64,000 bases of DNA from Anaerolinea thermophila. Lineage in GTDB: Bacteria > Chloroflexota > Anaerolineae > Anaerolineales > Anaerolineaceae. Location of the stretch: positions 578,484 through 642,483 of the forward strand of contig NZ_DYHZ01000001.1 of the NCBI RefSeq assembly GCF_020723905.1. Direction: 5' to 3'. A program made the translations under genes and the position numbers. How positions within the stretch are numbered: position 1 is the first letter of the stretch; every line of letters begins with the position of its first letter. This document shows positions 27,066 through 44,372 of the stretch, one piece after another. The notes beneath the pieces were generated by a model. The model made no database searches, had not been told where the DNA came from, and worked only from the letters and a program-made list of their open reading frames with translations.

Positions 27066-27156
27066 TTTTCCTCCGATTTTGTGACAATTATACCTTCTTG
27101 CCATGACAGGAAACACTTACCAGACCCGAAATCAGGAGTAAAATATCTCTAATTGA

Positions 27157-27196
27157 TGCAAATTGTTTGCAATAATTTATTGCAAAACATTTGCAA
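27157..27196 (+). promoter_or_regulatory. Three interlocked inverted repeats: likely Fur-family autoregulatory operator
   Basis: Three dyads share half-sites of TTGCAA: TGCAAA-TTG-TTTGCA (27157-27171), TTGCAATA-ATT-TATTGCAA (27167-27185) and TTGCAAA-ACA-TTTGCAA (27180-27196). Their centres are exactly 12 bases apart (27164, 27176, 27188). They lie 18 bases upstream of the Fur-family start and between it and the divergent hydrolase gene, so the Fur protein probably binds here and regulates fur-feoBA, and perhaps the hydrolase. Confidence 0.8.
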
Positions 27197-27213
27197 TAGA
27201 CAGGAAACAGGCT

Positions 27214-27711
27214 ATGGACACACTCGTTCAACAGGTTGCCACGCGATTGCGCGACGAAGGCGGAAGAATGACCAGCCAGCGCCGCCTGATTCTGCAGGCG
27301 CTGGAAGAACTGGGCGGTCACCCCACCGCCGAGGAGATTTTCCGGCATGTCTCCCGACAGTCACCGGGAATTAATCTTTCGACGGTGTACCGCACGCTCA
27401 ACTGGCTGGAAGAAAACGGCTTTATTGCGCCGCGCTGGTTTGAGGAAGAACGCCGTCGGGAACGCTTTGAGCCGGCAGTGCAGATAGCCCGCTCCCACCA
27501 TCCCACCCCGTTCCACTTTCGCTGTCGCTCATGCAACCGCATTCTGGAATTTGCAGACCCGCGGATGGAAGAAATTGTGGCGCAATTCGAGCGGCGCAGC
27601 GGTGCGCGAGTAAAAGACGTGGAATTGACCCTGTACGGGTTGTGTCAGACCTGTGCAAAAACAGAGTCTCTTTCTGGAACTTCACCTCATCACGAAGGGT
27701 TTATCAGGTAA
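27214..27711 (+). CDS. fur: Fur-family metal-responsive repressor
   Basis: A 165-residue protein. The winged helix is clear (MTSQRRLILQALEELGGHPTAEEIFRHV, INLSTVYRTLNWLEENGFI). The dimerisation domain has HHPTPFHFRCRSCNRILEF with the structural zinc pair CxxC, matched by a second CxxC in LYGLCQTCAK. His residues for the regulatory site are in the HFRC and HH segments. Start ATG at 27214 follows CAGGAAACAG; an in-frame ATG at 27163 lies inside the operators and lacks a ribosome binding site. Five bases separate it from feoB, so it most likely senses Fe(II), although Zur or PerR specificity cannot be excluded by sequence. Confidence 0.92.
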   Translation: MDTLVQQVATRLRDEGGRMTSQRRLILQALEELGGHPTAEEIFRHVSRQSPGINLSTVYRTLNWLEENGFIAPRWFEEERRRERFEPAVQIARSHHPTPFHFRCRSCNRILEFADPRMEEIVAQFERRSGARVKDVELTLYGLCQTCAKTESLSGTSPHHEGFIR

Positions 27712-27716
27712 TCGCT

Positions 27717-29693
27717 ATGGAACATTGCCAACCCAGTTCTGCTATACCGGTTACACCCTCAGGGAACACCATTGCGCTGGTCGGGAATCCCAATGTGGGC
27801 AAATCGGTGCTTTTTCACCGCCTGACCGGGCAGTACGTCATCGTATCCAACTATCCGGGCACAACCGTTGAAATCACCCAGGGCGCTCTGCGGGAGTTGC
27901 CCGGCGTGATGGTGCTGGACACACCCGGCATCGTCAGTTTTCCCGCCCAGAGCGAGGACGAAGCCGTTACAGCGCGTGTCCTGCTTAACGAGCCTTTGCG
28001 GGCGGTGCTTCAGGTGGGCGATGCCAAGAACCTGCGCCGCACCCTGCACCTGGCGGTGCAGTTAGCCGAGATGCGCCGTCCGCAGGTGCTGGCGCTGAAC
28101 ATGATGGACGAAGCCCGGCAACGCGGTTTGAAACTGGAGTGCGCTCACCTTGCGGATGCGCTGGGCATTCCGGTGGTGAGCACGGTTGCCACACAGGGAA
28201 AAGGCATGGACGATTTGCTCGCCGCCGTCCAGCATGCTGCCATTTCCCCCCTGCAACTGGAATACCCCCCCGCCATTGAGCAGTTTCTCAAACAGGCTGA
28301 AGGGCTGTTTCCCCCCGCTTATATTGCTCCGCGCGCGCTGGGCTTGCTCTTCCTGAGCGAAGACCCGGCTGTGGAAGCCTGGTTGAGTGAAAAAGCCGCG
28401 CCAGAGACGATCGAAACCCTGCGGCGTCTGCGACGCGAGACGGCAGAAACCCTGGGAGATACCCCTTTCAGCGTGATTCTGCAAACCCGCGAAGCCTTTA
28501 TCGCTCAGGTGGCAGAACGCGCCCTGCAGATCAGTGAAGAACAGACGTTCAGCCTCGCCATGGAACTGAGCCATTTGAGCACACATCCCCTGTGGGGCAT
28601 TCCGGTACTGGCGCTGATTCTGTACGCCATGTACTGGTTTGTGGGCGTGTTCGGTGCGGGCACGCTGGTAGGCTTGCTGGAAGAAAACCTGTTCGGCAAC
28701 ATCATCAACCCGTGGGTGGTCGAACACATTCAGCGCTGGATCCCGTGGCAATTTTTGAGCGATTTGCTGGTGGGCGAGTACGGGCTGTGGACGATGGGCG
28801 TGACCTATGCCTTTGCCCTGCTCCTGCCGGTGGTCACCACCTTCTTCATCGCTTTTGGCATTCTGGAAGATTCGGGATACCTGCCGCGCATGGCAGTACT
28901 GAGTAACCGTTTCTTCAGCCGCATGGGATTGAACGGGCAAGCCGTCCTGCCGATGATTCTCGGGCTGGGCTGTGTCACCATGGCAACCATGACCACCCGC
29001 ATCCTGCCCACGCGAAGAGAACGGGTGCTGGCGACCATCCTGCTGGCACTTGCCATCCCCTGCTCGGCGCAGTTGGGCGTGGTGATGGGCATGCTCGCCA
29101 ATGTGTCCTTCAGCGCGGCGCTTATCTGGACGGGCATCATCCTGCTGGTGCTGATGGCAGTGGGCTGGCTTGCCGCCCGCCTGATGCCCGGAGAACGCAA
29201 CCCGCTGGTGATCGAACTGCCGCCCCTGCGCTTCCCGGTATTGAGCAACGTGCTGGTGAAGACCGCCGCGCGGCTGGAGTGGTACATCAAAGAAGCCGTG
29301 CCGCTCTTCCTGCTGGGCACTCTGCTGCTGTTTGTGCTGGATAAAGCCCATTTGCTCCCCGCCATCATTCACGGGCTGGAGCCCATCGTCACGGGCTGGC
29401 TGGGCTTGCCGCCTCAGGCTGCCGCATCCTTCCTGCTGGGATTGATGCGCCGCGACTTTGCCGCCACCGAACTCTTTATGATGCAATCTCAGGGCTTGCT
29501 GAACCCCGTTCAGACGGTGGTGTCAATCGTTACCATCACGCTCTTTGTGCCCTGCATTGCCAGCATCTTCATGCTGTTCAAAGAACGCGGCACCAGAATC
29601 ACGCTGGGCATTCTGGCATTCGTCTTCCCCTTCGCCATTCTGGTCGGTGGGTTACTGTACCGTTTGCTGTTACTGGCAGGCTGGAATGGATAA
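27717..29693 (+). CDS. feoB: Ferrous iron transporter FeoB
   Basis: A 658-residue Fe(II) transporter. The N-terminal G domain has G1 ALVGNPNVGKS, G2-region SNYPGTTVEI, G3 VMVLDTPG and G4 LNMMDEA. After a helical spacer, about ten membrane helices form the core with the paired gate blocks (FALLLPVVTTFFIAFGILEDSGYLPR with NRFFSRMGLNGQAVLPMILGLGC, where Cys lines the path, and SFLLGLMRRDFAATELF in the second half). Translation is likely coupled to fur, five bases upstream. The longer upstream frame overlaps fur and is ignored. Operon order is fur-feoB-Cys-rich-feoA, an uncommon order since feoA usually precedes feoB. Confidence 0.96.
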   Translation: MEHCQPSSAIPVTPSGNTIALVGNPNVGKSVLFHRLTGQYVIVSNYPGTTVEITQGALRELPGVMVLDTPGIVSFPAQSEDEAVTARVLLNEPLRAVLQVGDAKNLRRTLHLAVQLAEMRRPQVLALNMMDEARQRGLKLECAHLADALGIPVVSTVATQGKGMDDLLAAVQHAAISPLQLEYPPAIEQFLKQAEGLFPPAYIAPRALGLLFLSEDPAVEAWLSEKAAPETIETLRRLRRETAETLGDTPFSVILQTREAFIAQVAERALQISEEQTFSLAMELSHLSTHPLWGIPVLALILYAMYWFVGVFGAGTLVGLLEENLFGNIINPWVVEHIQRWIPWQFLSDLLVGEYGLWTMGVTYAFALLLPVVTTFFIAFGILEDSGYLPRMAVLSNRFFSRMGLNGQAVLPMILGLGCVTMATMTTRILPTRRERVLATILLALAIPCSAQLGVVMGMLANVSFSAALIWTGIILLVLMAVGWLAARLMPGERNPLVIELPPLRFPVLSNVLVKTAARLEWYIKEAVPLFLLGTLLLFVLDKAHLLPAIIHGLEPIVTGWLGLPPQAAASFLLGLMRRDFAATELFMMQSQGLLNPVQTVVSIVTITLFVPCIASIFMLFKERGTRITLGILAFVFPFAILVGGLLYRLLLLAGWNG

Positions 29694-31135: not shown

Positions 31136-31160
31136 CGCCGCACCTTCTTTGGAAACGAAA

Positions 31161-38645: not shown

Positions 38646-39329
38646 ATGACCTCGTCCCCCCCTTCGATCCTCGCCCTCATTCCTGCCCATAACGAAGCCG
38701 GGCACATCACGCCGGTTATCGCCGGGGCGCGCCGTTACCTGCCCGTGCTGGTCGTAGATGACGGCTCTAGCGATGAAACTGCCCGTGTTGCCAGCGCCGC
38801 CGGAGCGGAAGTGCTCCGGCAAACCCCCAACCTGGGCAAGGGCGAAGCCCTGAAAACCGGGTTCCGTTGGGCGCTGGAGCAGCACTTTGAAGCCGTATTG
38901 ACGCTGGACGCCGACGGTCAGCACGATCCGGAAGAGATTCCCCGTTTTCTGGAAAAATGGGCGCAGAGCCGCGCGGATTTAATCATTGGCGCGCGGGATT
39001 TCCGGCAAATGCCTCTACACCGCCGCCTTGCCAACACCAGCGGCACATGGCTCTTTTCGTGGGCGGTCGGGCGTTCCATCCGTGATAACCAGTCGGGCTA
39101 CCGGCTCATTTCCCGCCGTCTGATGGAAGCCTCACTTGCCAGCGCACATGGCGGGTTTGAGTTTGAGGTGGATATGATTGTGATCTGCATCCAGCGTGGA
39201 TACAGGCTGGACTGGGTGAACATCCGCACCATTTACGGGGACGAGAAAAGTCACATTCAACCGCTCCGCCATGTGCAGGGGTTTATCCGCCTTGCCCTGG
39301 CGACCCGCCGCCTGATGCGGGAAAAGTAA
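38646..39329 (+). CDS. GT2 family glycosyltransferase (polyprenyl-phosphate sugar synthase-like)
   Basis: A 227-residue single-domain GT-A enzyme without membrane helices. The nucleotide-sugar motifs are LIPAHNEAGHITPVI, VVDDGSSDETARVA, LDADGQHDPEEIPR (DxD-type) and LTLDADGQ. The C-terminal DNQSGYRLISRRLMEAS is typical of dolichol- or undecaprenyl-phosphate mannosyl/glucosyltransferases. Start follows GAGGAGTCCT. A plausible promoter is TTGATT (starting about 38597) with TTATCC at 17 bp. It likely loads a lipid carrier with a sugar for the envelope. Confidence 0.9.
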   Translation: MTSSPPSILALIPAHNEAGHITPVIAGARRYLPVLVVDDGSSDETARVASAAGAEVLRQTPNLGKGEALKTGFRWALEQHFEAVLTLDADGQHDPEEIPRFLEKWAQSRADLIIGARDFRQMPLHRRLANTSGTWLFSWAVGRSIRDNQSGYRLISRRLMEASLASAHGGFEFEVDMIVICIQRGYRLDWVNIRTIYGDEKSHIQPLRHVQGFIRLALATRRLMREK

Positions 39330-39340
39330 TCCCAACCCCC

Positions 39341-39398
39341 TTGACAAAAAATACTCATCTGTTTACTATTTTCCGAAATTGGTAAACGGGTGAGTATT
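39341..39398 (+). promoter_or_regulatory. PadR operon promoter with a large interrupted palindrome
   Basis: TTGACA (39341-39346), 17-bp spacer, TACTAT (39364-39369). Over it lies a 49-bp interrupted palindrome: AATACTCATCTGTTTACTA (39350-39368) and, 11 bases later, TGGTAAACGGGTGAGTATT (39380-39398), matching at 16 of 19 positions in the inverted alignment. The left arm covers the -10, the right arm ends five bases before the ATG at 39404. It is most likely the operator of the PadR regulator encoded next. Confidence 0.85.
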
Positions 39399-39403
39399 TT
39401 CTT

Positions 39404-40018
39404 ATGTCTGTTCGCAACGCCATTCTGGGACTGCTCTGCCAGCGAAACCGCTACGGATACGAGGTGCTTCAGGCTTTCCAGGCTGTGGCAGGCGGTCGGG
39501 AAACATGGGAGTTGAAACCCGCTCAGGTGTACACCACCCTTGCCCGCCTGAAGGAAAACGGACTGGTGGTGGAAGAAATCTCTGATGGAGAAACCGACCC
39601 CGGAAAGCGCCGCTATGCCATCACCCCGGCGGGCAAAGCCGAACTGCAACGCTGGTTTGAGACTCCCGTGCCGGTGGAACATCAGCGCGATGAGTTCTTC
39701 CTGAAACTGATGCTGGCGCTGGCAACCGGTCAGGCAGATCCACGCCGGTTGATTTATCTGCAACGCGCCAGTCTGTTTCAGGAACTGCACCGCCTGACCA
39801 CCCTGCGCATGGAACTCGACCCCTACACCTCGCTGGCGCACATTCTCTTACTGGATCAGGCAATCATGCACATTGAAGCCGACCTGCGCTGGTTGGAGAT
39901 GATTGAAGCCCGATTGGACGAAGTGCGCAAACAGCCCATCCCTGAGCCGGAACTCCGCCCAAGAGGCAGACCAGGCAAGCATGAAAAAAACATCATTCCC
40001 ATGAAGGAGGAACCATGA
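39404..40018 (+). CDS. PadR-family transcriptional regulator
   Basis: A 204-residue protein with the PadR winged helix: NAILGLLCQRNRYGYEVLQAFQAVAGGRETWELKPAQVYTTLARLKENGLVVEEISDG, then KRRYAITPAGKAELQRWFETPV, and a C-terminal dimerisation helix region (EADLRWLEMIEARLDEVRKQ). It commands the ABC-transporter genes that follow: its TGA overlaps the ATG of the ATP-binding gene (ATGA), the classic arrangement for LmrR/BceR-like antibiotic-stress circuits. Likely autoregulated through the palindrome at its promoter. Confidence 0.93.
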   Translation: MSVRNAILGLLCQRNRYGYEVLQAFQAVAGGRETWELKPAQVYTTLARLKENGLVVEEISDGETDPGKRRYAITPAGKAELQRWFETPVPVEHQRDEFFLKLMLALATGQADPRRLIYLQRASLFQELHRLTTLRMELDPYTSLAHILLLDQAIMHIEADLRWLEMIEARLDEVRKQPIPEPELRPRGRPGKHEKNIIPMKEEP

Positions 40019-40764
40019 GCAACCCCATCGTATCTACCCAGTCCCTGACCAAGGTGTACGGGCAAGGCGCCGCCGCCGTCCGCGCACTGGATGGCGTGAA
40101 CCTGACCATTCAACCGGGCGAATTTGTCGCCGTGATGGGTCCCAGCGGATGCGGCAAGTCCACACTGCTTCACCTCATCGGCGGATTGGACCGTCCCACC
40201 TCTGGCACCGTCTGGCTGGATGGACAGGACCTGACGCAATTGAATGACGATCAGGTCACCGCCATCCGCCGGAAGAAAATGGGCTTCATCTTCCAGTTCT
40301 TCAACCTGATCCCGGTGCTTAACGCTCTGGAAAACGCCGCCCTGCCGATGATTCTGGACGGTATGCGCCCTGCTGAAGCCCGCAAACGCGCTCAGGAATG
40401 GCTGGAACGGGTAGGACTGGGACACCGGCTGACCCACCGCCCTTCGGAACTCTCCGGCGGCGAGCAACAGCGGGTTGCCATTGCCCGGGCGCTGGCAAGC
40501 GATCCCGCCCTTATCCTGGCGGATGAACCCACCGGCAACCTGGATTCGCGCGCCTCGGAGGAAATTGCCGGTTTGCTCCGCCAAATTTCCAGCACATGGG
40601 AACGCACCATCCTCATGGTCACCCACGATGCACGCATTGCCGCGTATGCCGACCGCATTGTCTTTTTGAAAGACGGGAAAATTGTGGATGAAACAGTGCT
40701 GGAGCACCGCAACGGCGAGCAGGCGGAGATGGTTGCCGATAAGATGAAAGAAATCGGGGATTAA
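40015..40764 (+). CDS. MacB/LolD-type ABC transporter ATP-binding protein
   Basis: A 249-residue ATPase with Walker A GPSGCGKSTLLH, Q-loop region FIFQFFNLIPVLNALENAALPM, signature LSGGEQQRVAIARALA, Walker B PALILADEPTGNLDSR and H-loop LMVTHDARIAAYADR. The sequence around the Q-loop is that of FtsX/MacB-type transporters. Partner is the permease at 40796. Its start overlaps the PadR stop. Confidence 0.95.
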   Translation: MSNPIVSTQSLTKVYGQGAAAVRALDGVNLTIQPGEFVAVMGPSGCGKSTLLHLIGGLDRPTSGTVWLDGQDLTQLNDDQVTAIRRKKMGFIFQFFNLIPVLNALENAALPMILDGMRPAEARKRAQEWLERVGLGHRLTHRPSELSGGEQQRVAIARALASDPALILADEPTGNLDSRASEEIAGLLRQISSTWERTILMVTHDARIAAYADRIVFLKDGKIVDETVLEHRNGEQAEMVADKMKEIGD

Positions 40765-43367: not shown

Positions 43368-43412
43368 ACAGAAAGCCCTCCTGCAGACATTCACCGGGAG
43401 GGCTTTCTGTTT
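43368..43412 (+). terminator. Intrinsic terminator of the PadR-ABC operon
   Basis: A 14-bp stem (ACAGAAAGCCCTCC-type arm, 43368-43381, with GGAGGGCTTTCTGT, 43397-43410) and a 15-base loop, followed by a short TTT. Confidence 0.85.
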
Positions 43413-43433: not shown

Positions 43434-44306
43434 CTATCCGTCCAGTGAAGTTGCTGTGTGCGGCAAAGCGCGCACCCGGCGTAAGAACGCGCTCACTCGA
43501 TCATCATCTCCCTGCGGGTAGGTCAGACCAGAGTGTTGCGCCACCGCCTGCGCCGCTTTGCGGAAGAGATCCGTCATGGCAAACAGGGCATCCCAGGTAC
43601 GCTGTTCGTCGGCATCGGCATACGTCGCCAGCAGGTGCTCCCACTCTGCGGGTTCAAGGTATTTACGGAAGTACTTTCCCTCTTTGCCCGGATTGACCCT
43701 GAAATCGGTGCGTATCCCTATATACCAGCGAAGCATGGCGAACAACTGCGCACGGCAAATCTCCATCATGGCTCTGGCATAGGTGATTTCCTCGCGCCAC
43801 AGTCCCTTTGCCACACAGGTGCTCACCCACCAGAACTCATTACAGCAATCGGCAAAGGAACGCTGAGCAGGCGGTCTGGGCGGGTAGTCACCCTCGTGCG
43901 GCGGCGGGAATGGCTCGATGATGCCATCTTTATCCAGTAAAAGCACGCTCAAACTGTCCCGTCCCAGTTCAGACAGACGCTGAAGGGGATGAAAAGTCAA
44001 GTCTATACGGTTGCCATCGGTGAACTGCATGAGAAAAGCAAAAATCCCCGTGGAGGATTCCTAAACGGGGTCACCCATCTCCTCAGGCACCTGATAAATC
44101 ATCAGGTCTCCAAAAGAACGCATCCAGGCGCGATCCTGTTTGAAAGGCGCATCGTCGGTGACCACATAGACGATATCGAAATCCTGAAAGAAATCCCGCG
44201 GCGCATCTGGGTTGGCGCGCGAGCCGTTGAGAATCACTGCTCGCACGCGCTCATCACCGCGGGCAAAGTCGAGAATGAGATTCATCATTTCCTGTTCCGT
44301 GCGCAT
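43434..44306 (-). pseudogene. Aminoglycoside 6-adenylyltransferase (AadE/ANT(6))-like gene interrupted by an in-frame TAG
   Basis: Minus strand. A well-placed ATG at 44306 (GGAGGGAGC upstream) starts RTEQEMMNLILDFARGDERVRAVILNGSRANPD (nucleotidyltransferase GS motif) and FQDFDIVYVVTD (Asp pair). At 44061-44063 the frame meets TAG; it resumes at once without frame change as ESSTGIFAFLMQFTDGNRIDLTFHPL, an essential AadE block, and continues to the end at 43434 (CNEFWWVSTCVAKGLWREEITYARAMME, then the helical C-terminal domain). Apart from the single amber codon the protein is full length (289 sense residues). The TAG is inside a hairpin (see findings). Original role: possible streptomycin-type resistance or a related nucleotidyltransferase. 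Confidence 0.86.
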
Positions 44307-44372
44307 AACATGCTCCCTCCTTGAAGGAAAGGATACTACAGGGTTCATCCAAAAGACAAAACTGGAATGTGA

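Follow-up and report, generated by a model that had tools for sequence, protein, structure and literature searches.

The locus analysed here lies in a 64,000-nucleotide stretch of Anaerolinea thermophila DNA (the window) and consists of a gene for a PadR-family regulator followed by genes for an ABC ATPase and a permease, with a promoter and a long interrupted palindrome immediately upstream (Table 1). The ATPase gave its best scores with the LolD, YbbA and MacB models. The MacB model NF007826, which describes one chain where the window has two genes, was not reached (the permease scored 80.9 bits and the ATPase 233.6 bits, with the cut-off at 966), and neither was the ADOP model TIGR03434 (112.7 against 622.3 bits), despite the duplicated chain with two FtsX stretches. 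Because the LolD, MacB and ADOP models all scored below their curated cut-offs, we call the system a LolD/MacB-type ABC exporter with a duplicated permease. The first-pass annotation had named it a MacB operon, which is loose. The genes were kept together in the orthologous loci surveyed below: the ATPase lay at most 400 bp from padR in 77 of the 85 loci with at least 900 bp of downstream sequence, and among the 41 loci whose downstream sequence reached 2500 bp or more, 40 had a permease match, which was weak in four (26-27% identity). On the minus strand, two ORFs at 43434-44030 and 44061-44348 corresponded to the C- and N-terminal portions of a single PF04439 streptomycin adenylyltransferase, so this gene appears to be split in the assembly.

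Table 1. Features of the padR-exporter locus, in window coordinates.
Feature	Position	Strand	Remarks
-35 hexamer TTGACA	39341..39346	+	sigma-70 consensus match
Predicted operator box 1, AAAATACTCATCTGTTTACTATTTT	39348..39372	+	pseudo-palindrome, centre 39360; occupies the -35/-10 spacer and takes in the -10
-10 hexamer TACTAT	39364..39369	+	inside right half of box 1
Predicted operator box 2	39376..39400	-	box 1 sequence inverted, centre 39388; over predicted transcript start and leader
PadR-family regulator, 204 aa, proposed autorepressor	39404..40018	+	PF03551 and PF10400
ABC ATPase, LolD/MacB type	40015..40764	+	start overlaps PadR stop codon
Permease, 851 aa	40796..43351	+	two MacB_PCD and two FtsX stretches in one chain
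Probable operon terminator	43369..43410	+	stem then T-rich stretch 3' of permease, by inspection

The regulator belongs to the PadR family (PF03551, 59.9 bits, cut-off 27) and, with PF10400 at 26.4 bits (cut-off 22.4) and a length of about 200 residues, to the two-domain subfamily PadR-s1. The structure model had a mean pLDDT of 83.8, falling below 50 at residues 185-204, and placed C-terminal helices at 91-108, 113-137 and 144-176. Its best fold matches were the PadR proteins Rv0047c (Z 15.1, rmsd 5.7, 160 residues aligned) and Rv1176c (Z 14.2, rmsd 6.0, 167 aligned), and Bacillus subtilis PadR (BsPadR) and AphA superposed well on it over the winged-helix part only. Residues W35, P39, Q41, T45, L46 and R48, in or just before a predicted helix at 39-51, were invariant in all 91 orthologues. 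The PadR signature tyrosines, given as Y20 and Y42 for BsPadR in the part of the source consulted (PMC6457526), correspond in the alignment to window Y19, present in 91/91 orthologues, and Y43, present in 90/91.

The palindrome at 39350-39398 has 19-base arms that pair at 16 positions across a gap of 11 bases, and its right arm ends five bases 5' of the ATG at 39404, exactly as described in the first-pass annotation. It extends further than was described, with 26-nt arms (22/26 paired) around a one-base centre at 39348-39400. When the local 74 bp were shuffled 5000 times with dinucleotides preserved, arms of 19 bp with at least 16 matches and a gap of 0-30 bp arose in 3 shuffles, and any repeat of this class was present in 3 of 40 Markov-simulated whole windows. 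The palindrome is therefore real and beyond local chance. Repeats of this kind are not unique to 39350 within the window, which holds four, the others being at 27156, 31156 and 43368. By inspection, those at 31156 and 43368 resemble terminators and that at 27156 resembles another operator: this inverted repeat (27156-27197) has TTGCAA-type arms, lies just 5' of a Fur-family-like ORF (about 27214-27711) and then a FeoB-like ORF (27531-29693), all named by inspection, and is probably a Fur-type operator.

The promoter TTGACA-N17-TACTAT agrees with the sigma-70 consensus at 10 of 12 positions and was the sole promoter-like site called within 39250-39550. It had been placed over the left arm of the palindrome, but TTGACA lies just to the left of that arm. 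A more informative division of the region is into two 25-bp boxes whose centres are 28 bp apart, the second ending three bases 5' of the PadR start codon. The boxes have nearly the same sequence in opposite orientations, hence the apparent long palindrome.

The survey on which this division rests drew on a class-level search, in which any match at E 0.001 was found in 280 of 396 genomes, and an order-level search, with 41 of 301 at E 1e-40. A contig search of genomes gave 34 loci and 34 further stretches were hand-picked, the listed matches being sampled in part. In total, 126 loci with a PadR match reduced to 99 distinct upstream regions, of which 91 had a PadR at least 50% identical to that of the window; the remaining 8, with PadR identity below 50%, were left out of every count. 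Named relatives included Thermanaerothrix and Anaerolinea at 72-83% PadR identity, and some of the 91 regions are near relatives of each other and do not represent 91 independent cases.

A 25-base matrix was built iteratively from a seed picked by eye from the same set, giving the matrix consensus AAA[AC]TA[G]TAACTCGTttA[n]TAtTTT and a box family consensus of about AAAnTAnTAACTCGTnnAnTAnTTT. With the threshold set above all 1820 simulated upstreams, boxes were called in 86 of the 91 regions, of which 57 held two and 29 held one; the other 5 had none (L040, L082, L083, L102 and L121). At the same threshold, 0 of 455 further Markov-simulated upstreams and 1 of 217 coding stretches passed. As the matrix had been trained on the surveyed regions, the test was repeated across the midpoint split of the PadR tree with the same seed; a matrix trained on 29 regions found boxes in 58 of the other 62, and one trained on the 62 found them in 28 of the 29. 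Box 1 of the window scored 27.0 and box 2 scored 27.6 on the minus strand; with the window's side of the tree excluded and the matrix trained solely on the other PadR clade, the scores were 28.7 and 29.0, respectively. The orthologue comparison thus supports the first-pass proposal of an operator over the promoter of the PadR-ATPase-permease operon.

The individual boxes showed dyad symmetry, with a mean of 6.9 of 12 pairs matched over the 143 called boxes against 4.0 in shuffles. The matrix correlated with its own reverse complement at r = 0.68; with symmetry this imperfect, one half may be bound much more strongly than the other. We infer that each 25-bp box is probably self-sufficient, a site of imperfect symmetry that takes a single dimer of the adjacent PadR. 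Neither window box contains ATGT or ACAT, the words of the ATGT-N8-10-ACAT type of PadR operator, by inspection; their half-site is nearer to TAnTAAC. In three loci with PadR identity of 42% (L086, L087 and L126), two boxes of drifted sequence are apparent by inspection at TTGACA promoters, which suggests that the twin-box plan may be older than the 91-member set.

The first box is tied to the promoter. In 67 of the 91 orthologue promoters a box centre lies 18 or 19 bp after the start of TTGAC, and 64 of these 67 have, following a 17-base spacer, a hexamer whose second base is A and whose sixth is T; the -10 therefore belongs to box 1. The orientation of box 1 was constant in 52 of 53 clearly oriented pairs, and we infer that it is fixed by the -10. 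Box 2 is free of this constraint: 38 pairs were direct (++), 14 were inverted (+-, the form found in the window) and one was --. Among the single-box promoters, 12 had box 1 only, 10 had box 2 only and 7 were ambiguous as to position. Since direct, inverted and single forms all occur, the window's long palindrome is one of several arrangements of two separate boxes. Across orthologous upstreams, then, the boxes are conserved and the long inverted form is a minority.

The centre-to-centre spacing in the 57 two-box promoters was 25 bp in one, 27 in one, 28 in one, 29 in 4, 30 in 11, 31 in 16, 32 in one, 35 in 21 and 36 in one. This distribution is bimodal, with 31/57 at 29-31 bp and 21/57 at 35 bp, and roughly half a helical turn separates the modes. 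A search of the 57 spacings for a constant helical phase between dimers found none, and with two modes no single geometry of two touching dimers fits. On the PadR tree, the minimum numbers of changes were 7 for orientation, 6 for spacing and 13 among two-box, box-1-only and box-2-only architectures. These counts are approximate because the tree came from a quick maximum-likelihood search in which 25 of 88 inner branches were starred and 32 open; its labels used an earlier count without boxes that overlap the start codon (53 two, 33 one, 5 none), with 50 oriented pairs (36 direct and 14 inverted). Boxes have thus been independently gained or lost and flipped.

The first-pass annotation had read the palindrome as a single unusually long PadR site, which the regulator might bind as a pair of dimers or through looped contact. 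In a strict version of this, the 49-53 bp palindrome could not be divided: a PadR tetramer or a looped complex would occupy all of it and use each long arm as a half-site. The 22/26 match between the window's arms fits such a site, as does the retention of the inverted arrangement in the four nearest relatives (L035-L038, 79-83% PadR identity) and in L039. However, each box is a dyad of ordinary length on its own, most clearly oriented pairs are direct repeats, single-box promoters exist, and orientation has changed at least 7 times; we therefore regard the indivisible site as very unlikely. The single long-armed site was rejected on the ground that most orthologues have direct repeats or one box. 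Looped contact found no support here, and 28 bp between centres would be short for a loop. The pair of dimers is the reading that the data favour.

We also considered that the repeat might act as RNA: transcripts that read through from the upstream glycosyltransferase gene would fold into a long hairpin, and this would insulate the PadR operon or attenuate its expression. The plus strand folds to -28.3 kcal/mol (z -6.1), 17 pairs were predicted in six inverted-type promoters, 5 of them with at least one two-sided change, and by inspection 3 of the 4 arm differences permit G-U pairs. Two-sided changes would also arise if the two boxes followed the changes of a single regulator. Transcription from the predicted promoter would start near 39376, giving an RNA with the right arm only, the 38 direct-repeat promoters could not form such a hairpin, so that it is not general, and no terminator-like site was called within 39250-39550. 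The upstream glycosyltransferase was found in 1 of the 91 loci, the window's own, within the locus sequence examined. An RNA role is accordingly very unlikely.

The inverted box 2 of the window contains a Shine-Dalgarno-like GGTGA at 39389-39393, 10 nt before the start codon, and GGTGA is also present in the inverted box 2 of L036-L038. GGTGA itself occurred in 4 of the 14 inverted promoters, all four of the window's clade. There was no general link between inversion of box 2 and a Shine-Dalgarno sequence: Shine-Dalgarno-like words were present in the last 18 nt of 5/14 inverted and 8/38 direct promoters.

We scanned genomes for further copies of the boxes using a sequence-only model. In ten genomes (the window's own and nine hand-chosen relatives) the model gave 17 matches, of which 16 adjoin padR. 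The best 150 candidates per genome were scored, with modest E-values; the model included boxes from some of the scanned genomes, so that the matches at padR are partly by construction and the scarcity of others is the informative part. In the own genome there were exactly two matches among the best 150 of 532 candidates, box 1 at E 0.007 and box 2 at E 0.005, both of which were in the model. Searching that genome with 19 bases of the box 1 pattern and allowing as many as 3 mismatches gave one place. The boxes are thus nearly confined to the padR promoter in the ten genomes, which fits the earlier description of a self-contained circuit, for which a role in drug or peptide stress had been suggested.

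Within promoters, the strong halves of the two boxes were more alike (0.761) than in random pairings with promoters of distant PadR proteins (mean 0.699); over the 57 promoters, 0 of 2000 random draws were as high as 0.761. This is as expected if one protein reads both boxes. That protein might be a regulator other than the adjacent PadR: AT-rich dyads of this size are used by many regulators, and the own genome has two other PadR-family matches above cut-off. The region upstream of one further PadR gene in this genome (L003) carries ATACTCATTTAGTGAGTAT, a short and almost perfect palindrome. Its outer half is similar to box 1, with which the palindrome shares ATACTCAT, and cross-binding may occur. 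Against a different regulator stand the 86 of 91 padR orthologues that boxes accompany, the co-variation of boxes within a promoter and their near-confinement to padR. We consider it very unlikely that the boxes are bound by another protein instead.

Taken together, these results make it highly probable that the window carries a twin operator through which the PadR-ABC exporter operon is self-repressed, with one PadR dimer per box and repression relieved by a ligand. The boxes, their positions and their conservation were computed, and binding, stoichiometry, repression and ligand are proposed from PadR precedents. A PadR dimer on box 1 would cover the -35/-10 spacer and the -10 and so exclude RNA polymerase, and a second dimer on box 2 would cover the predicted transcription start and leader as an additional block. 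The padR-ATPase-permease operon would be kept silent by its own PadR until a ligand, probably one of the compounds that the exporter handles, released the regulator and allowed the exporter to be made.

A broader proposal, which we offer tentatively and hold to be somewhat doubtful, is that the PadR-ABC family forms a natural operator series. A promoter-occluding dimer site would be joined by a second site that is gained, lost, flipped and moved, mostly 29-31 or 35 bp away, which would put the dimers on one face of the DNA or on opposite faces. This additional site would act as an independent tuner of dose response and not as a cooperative partner, and its inversion in the window's clade would also bring the Shine-Dalgarno-like GGTGA into the operator. 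The effect of a second operator on repression has a natural experiment in the promoters that have a single box, two direct boxes or two inverted boxes. The box also supplies an operator motif that can be tested in a PadR-exporter family found widely across the window's class of bacteria. The locus illustrates, too, how two ordinary sites that chance to lie face to face can look like one impressive long palindrome.

A literature search, among its best matches listed, gave no study of a PadR operator in Anaerolineae, and one combining the PadR family with Anaerolineae gave no paper, subscription papers being mostly outside the coverage of both. Bacillus subtilis PadR, which regulates phenolic acid decarboxylase, is likewise a two-domain protein whose signature tyrosines align with those of the window PadR, and it is seen as a dimer on operator DNA (5x11, operator complex). 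It differs in having L65 where the window PadR has Pro66, and whole-chain superposition on the window model was poor (rmsd about 18). LmrR of Lactococcus lactis is a PadR-like repressor of the drug ABC exporter LmrCD and of its own gene (PMC5428041, PMC4534193, both in part), and two dimers sit on the lmrCD operator (PMC5428041). In contrast to the window system, as far as the excerpts of these papers go, LmrR is a PadR-s2 protein with ATGT/ACAT repeats, its two dimers occupy a 33-bp fragment that carries a single motif, and its exporter is heterodimeric (PMC5428041, PMC4534193).

The nearest solved sequence to the window PadR is AphA of Vibrio cholerae (1yg2). According to the portion of the report consulted, AphA recognizes the palindromic site ATGCAA-N4-TTGCAT, binds single sites or two adjacent sites cooperatively, and excludes RNA polymerase at one promoter from a single site (PMC6855506). 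It thus shares with the proposed system the PadR family, palindromic sites that are single or in adjacent pairs, and polymerase exclusion; however, the same portion presents AphA as a quorum-sensing regulator with many targets, whereas the window PadR is proposed to be a local autorepressor of an exporter (PMC6855506). A comparable arrangement is that of cdPadR1 (CDR20291_0991) of Clostridium difficile R20291, a PadR-s2 protein with a different box sequence (the window PadR being PadR-s1), for which the available text reports binding to two TACT-N11-12-AGTA repeats in its own promoter, each set of inverted repeats being bound on its own in gel shifts and the placement being read as autoregulation (PMC5050560). 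Two dyad boxes with an AT-rich core in the regulator's own promoter are common to cdPadR1 and the window (PMC5050560), and in its box layout this arrangement was found in 57/91 promoters including the window's. The cdPadR1 motif was predicted, in the same text, at about 200 other places in the genome, whereas the window boxes are nearly confined to one promoter (PMC5050560). From these partial sources, two adjacent sites for PadR proteins are already known (cdPadR1 and AphA), and the window system is set apart by the sequence of its box, by how nearly that box is confined to one promoter and by the variety of its arrangements.
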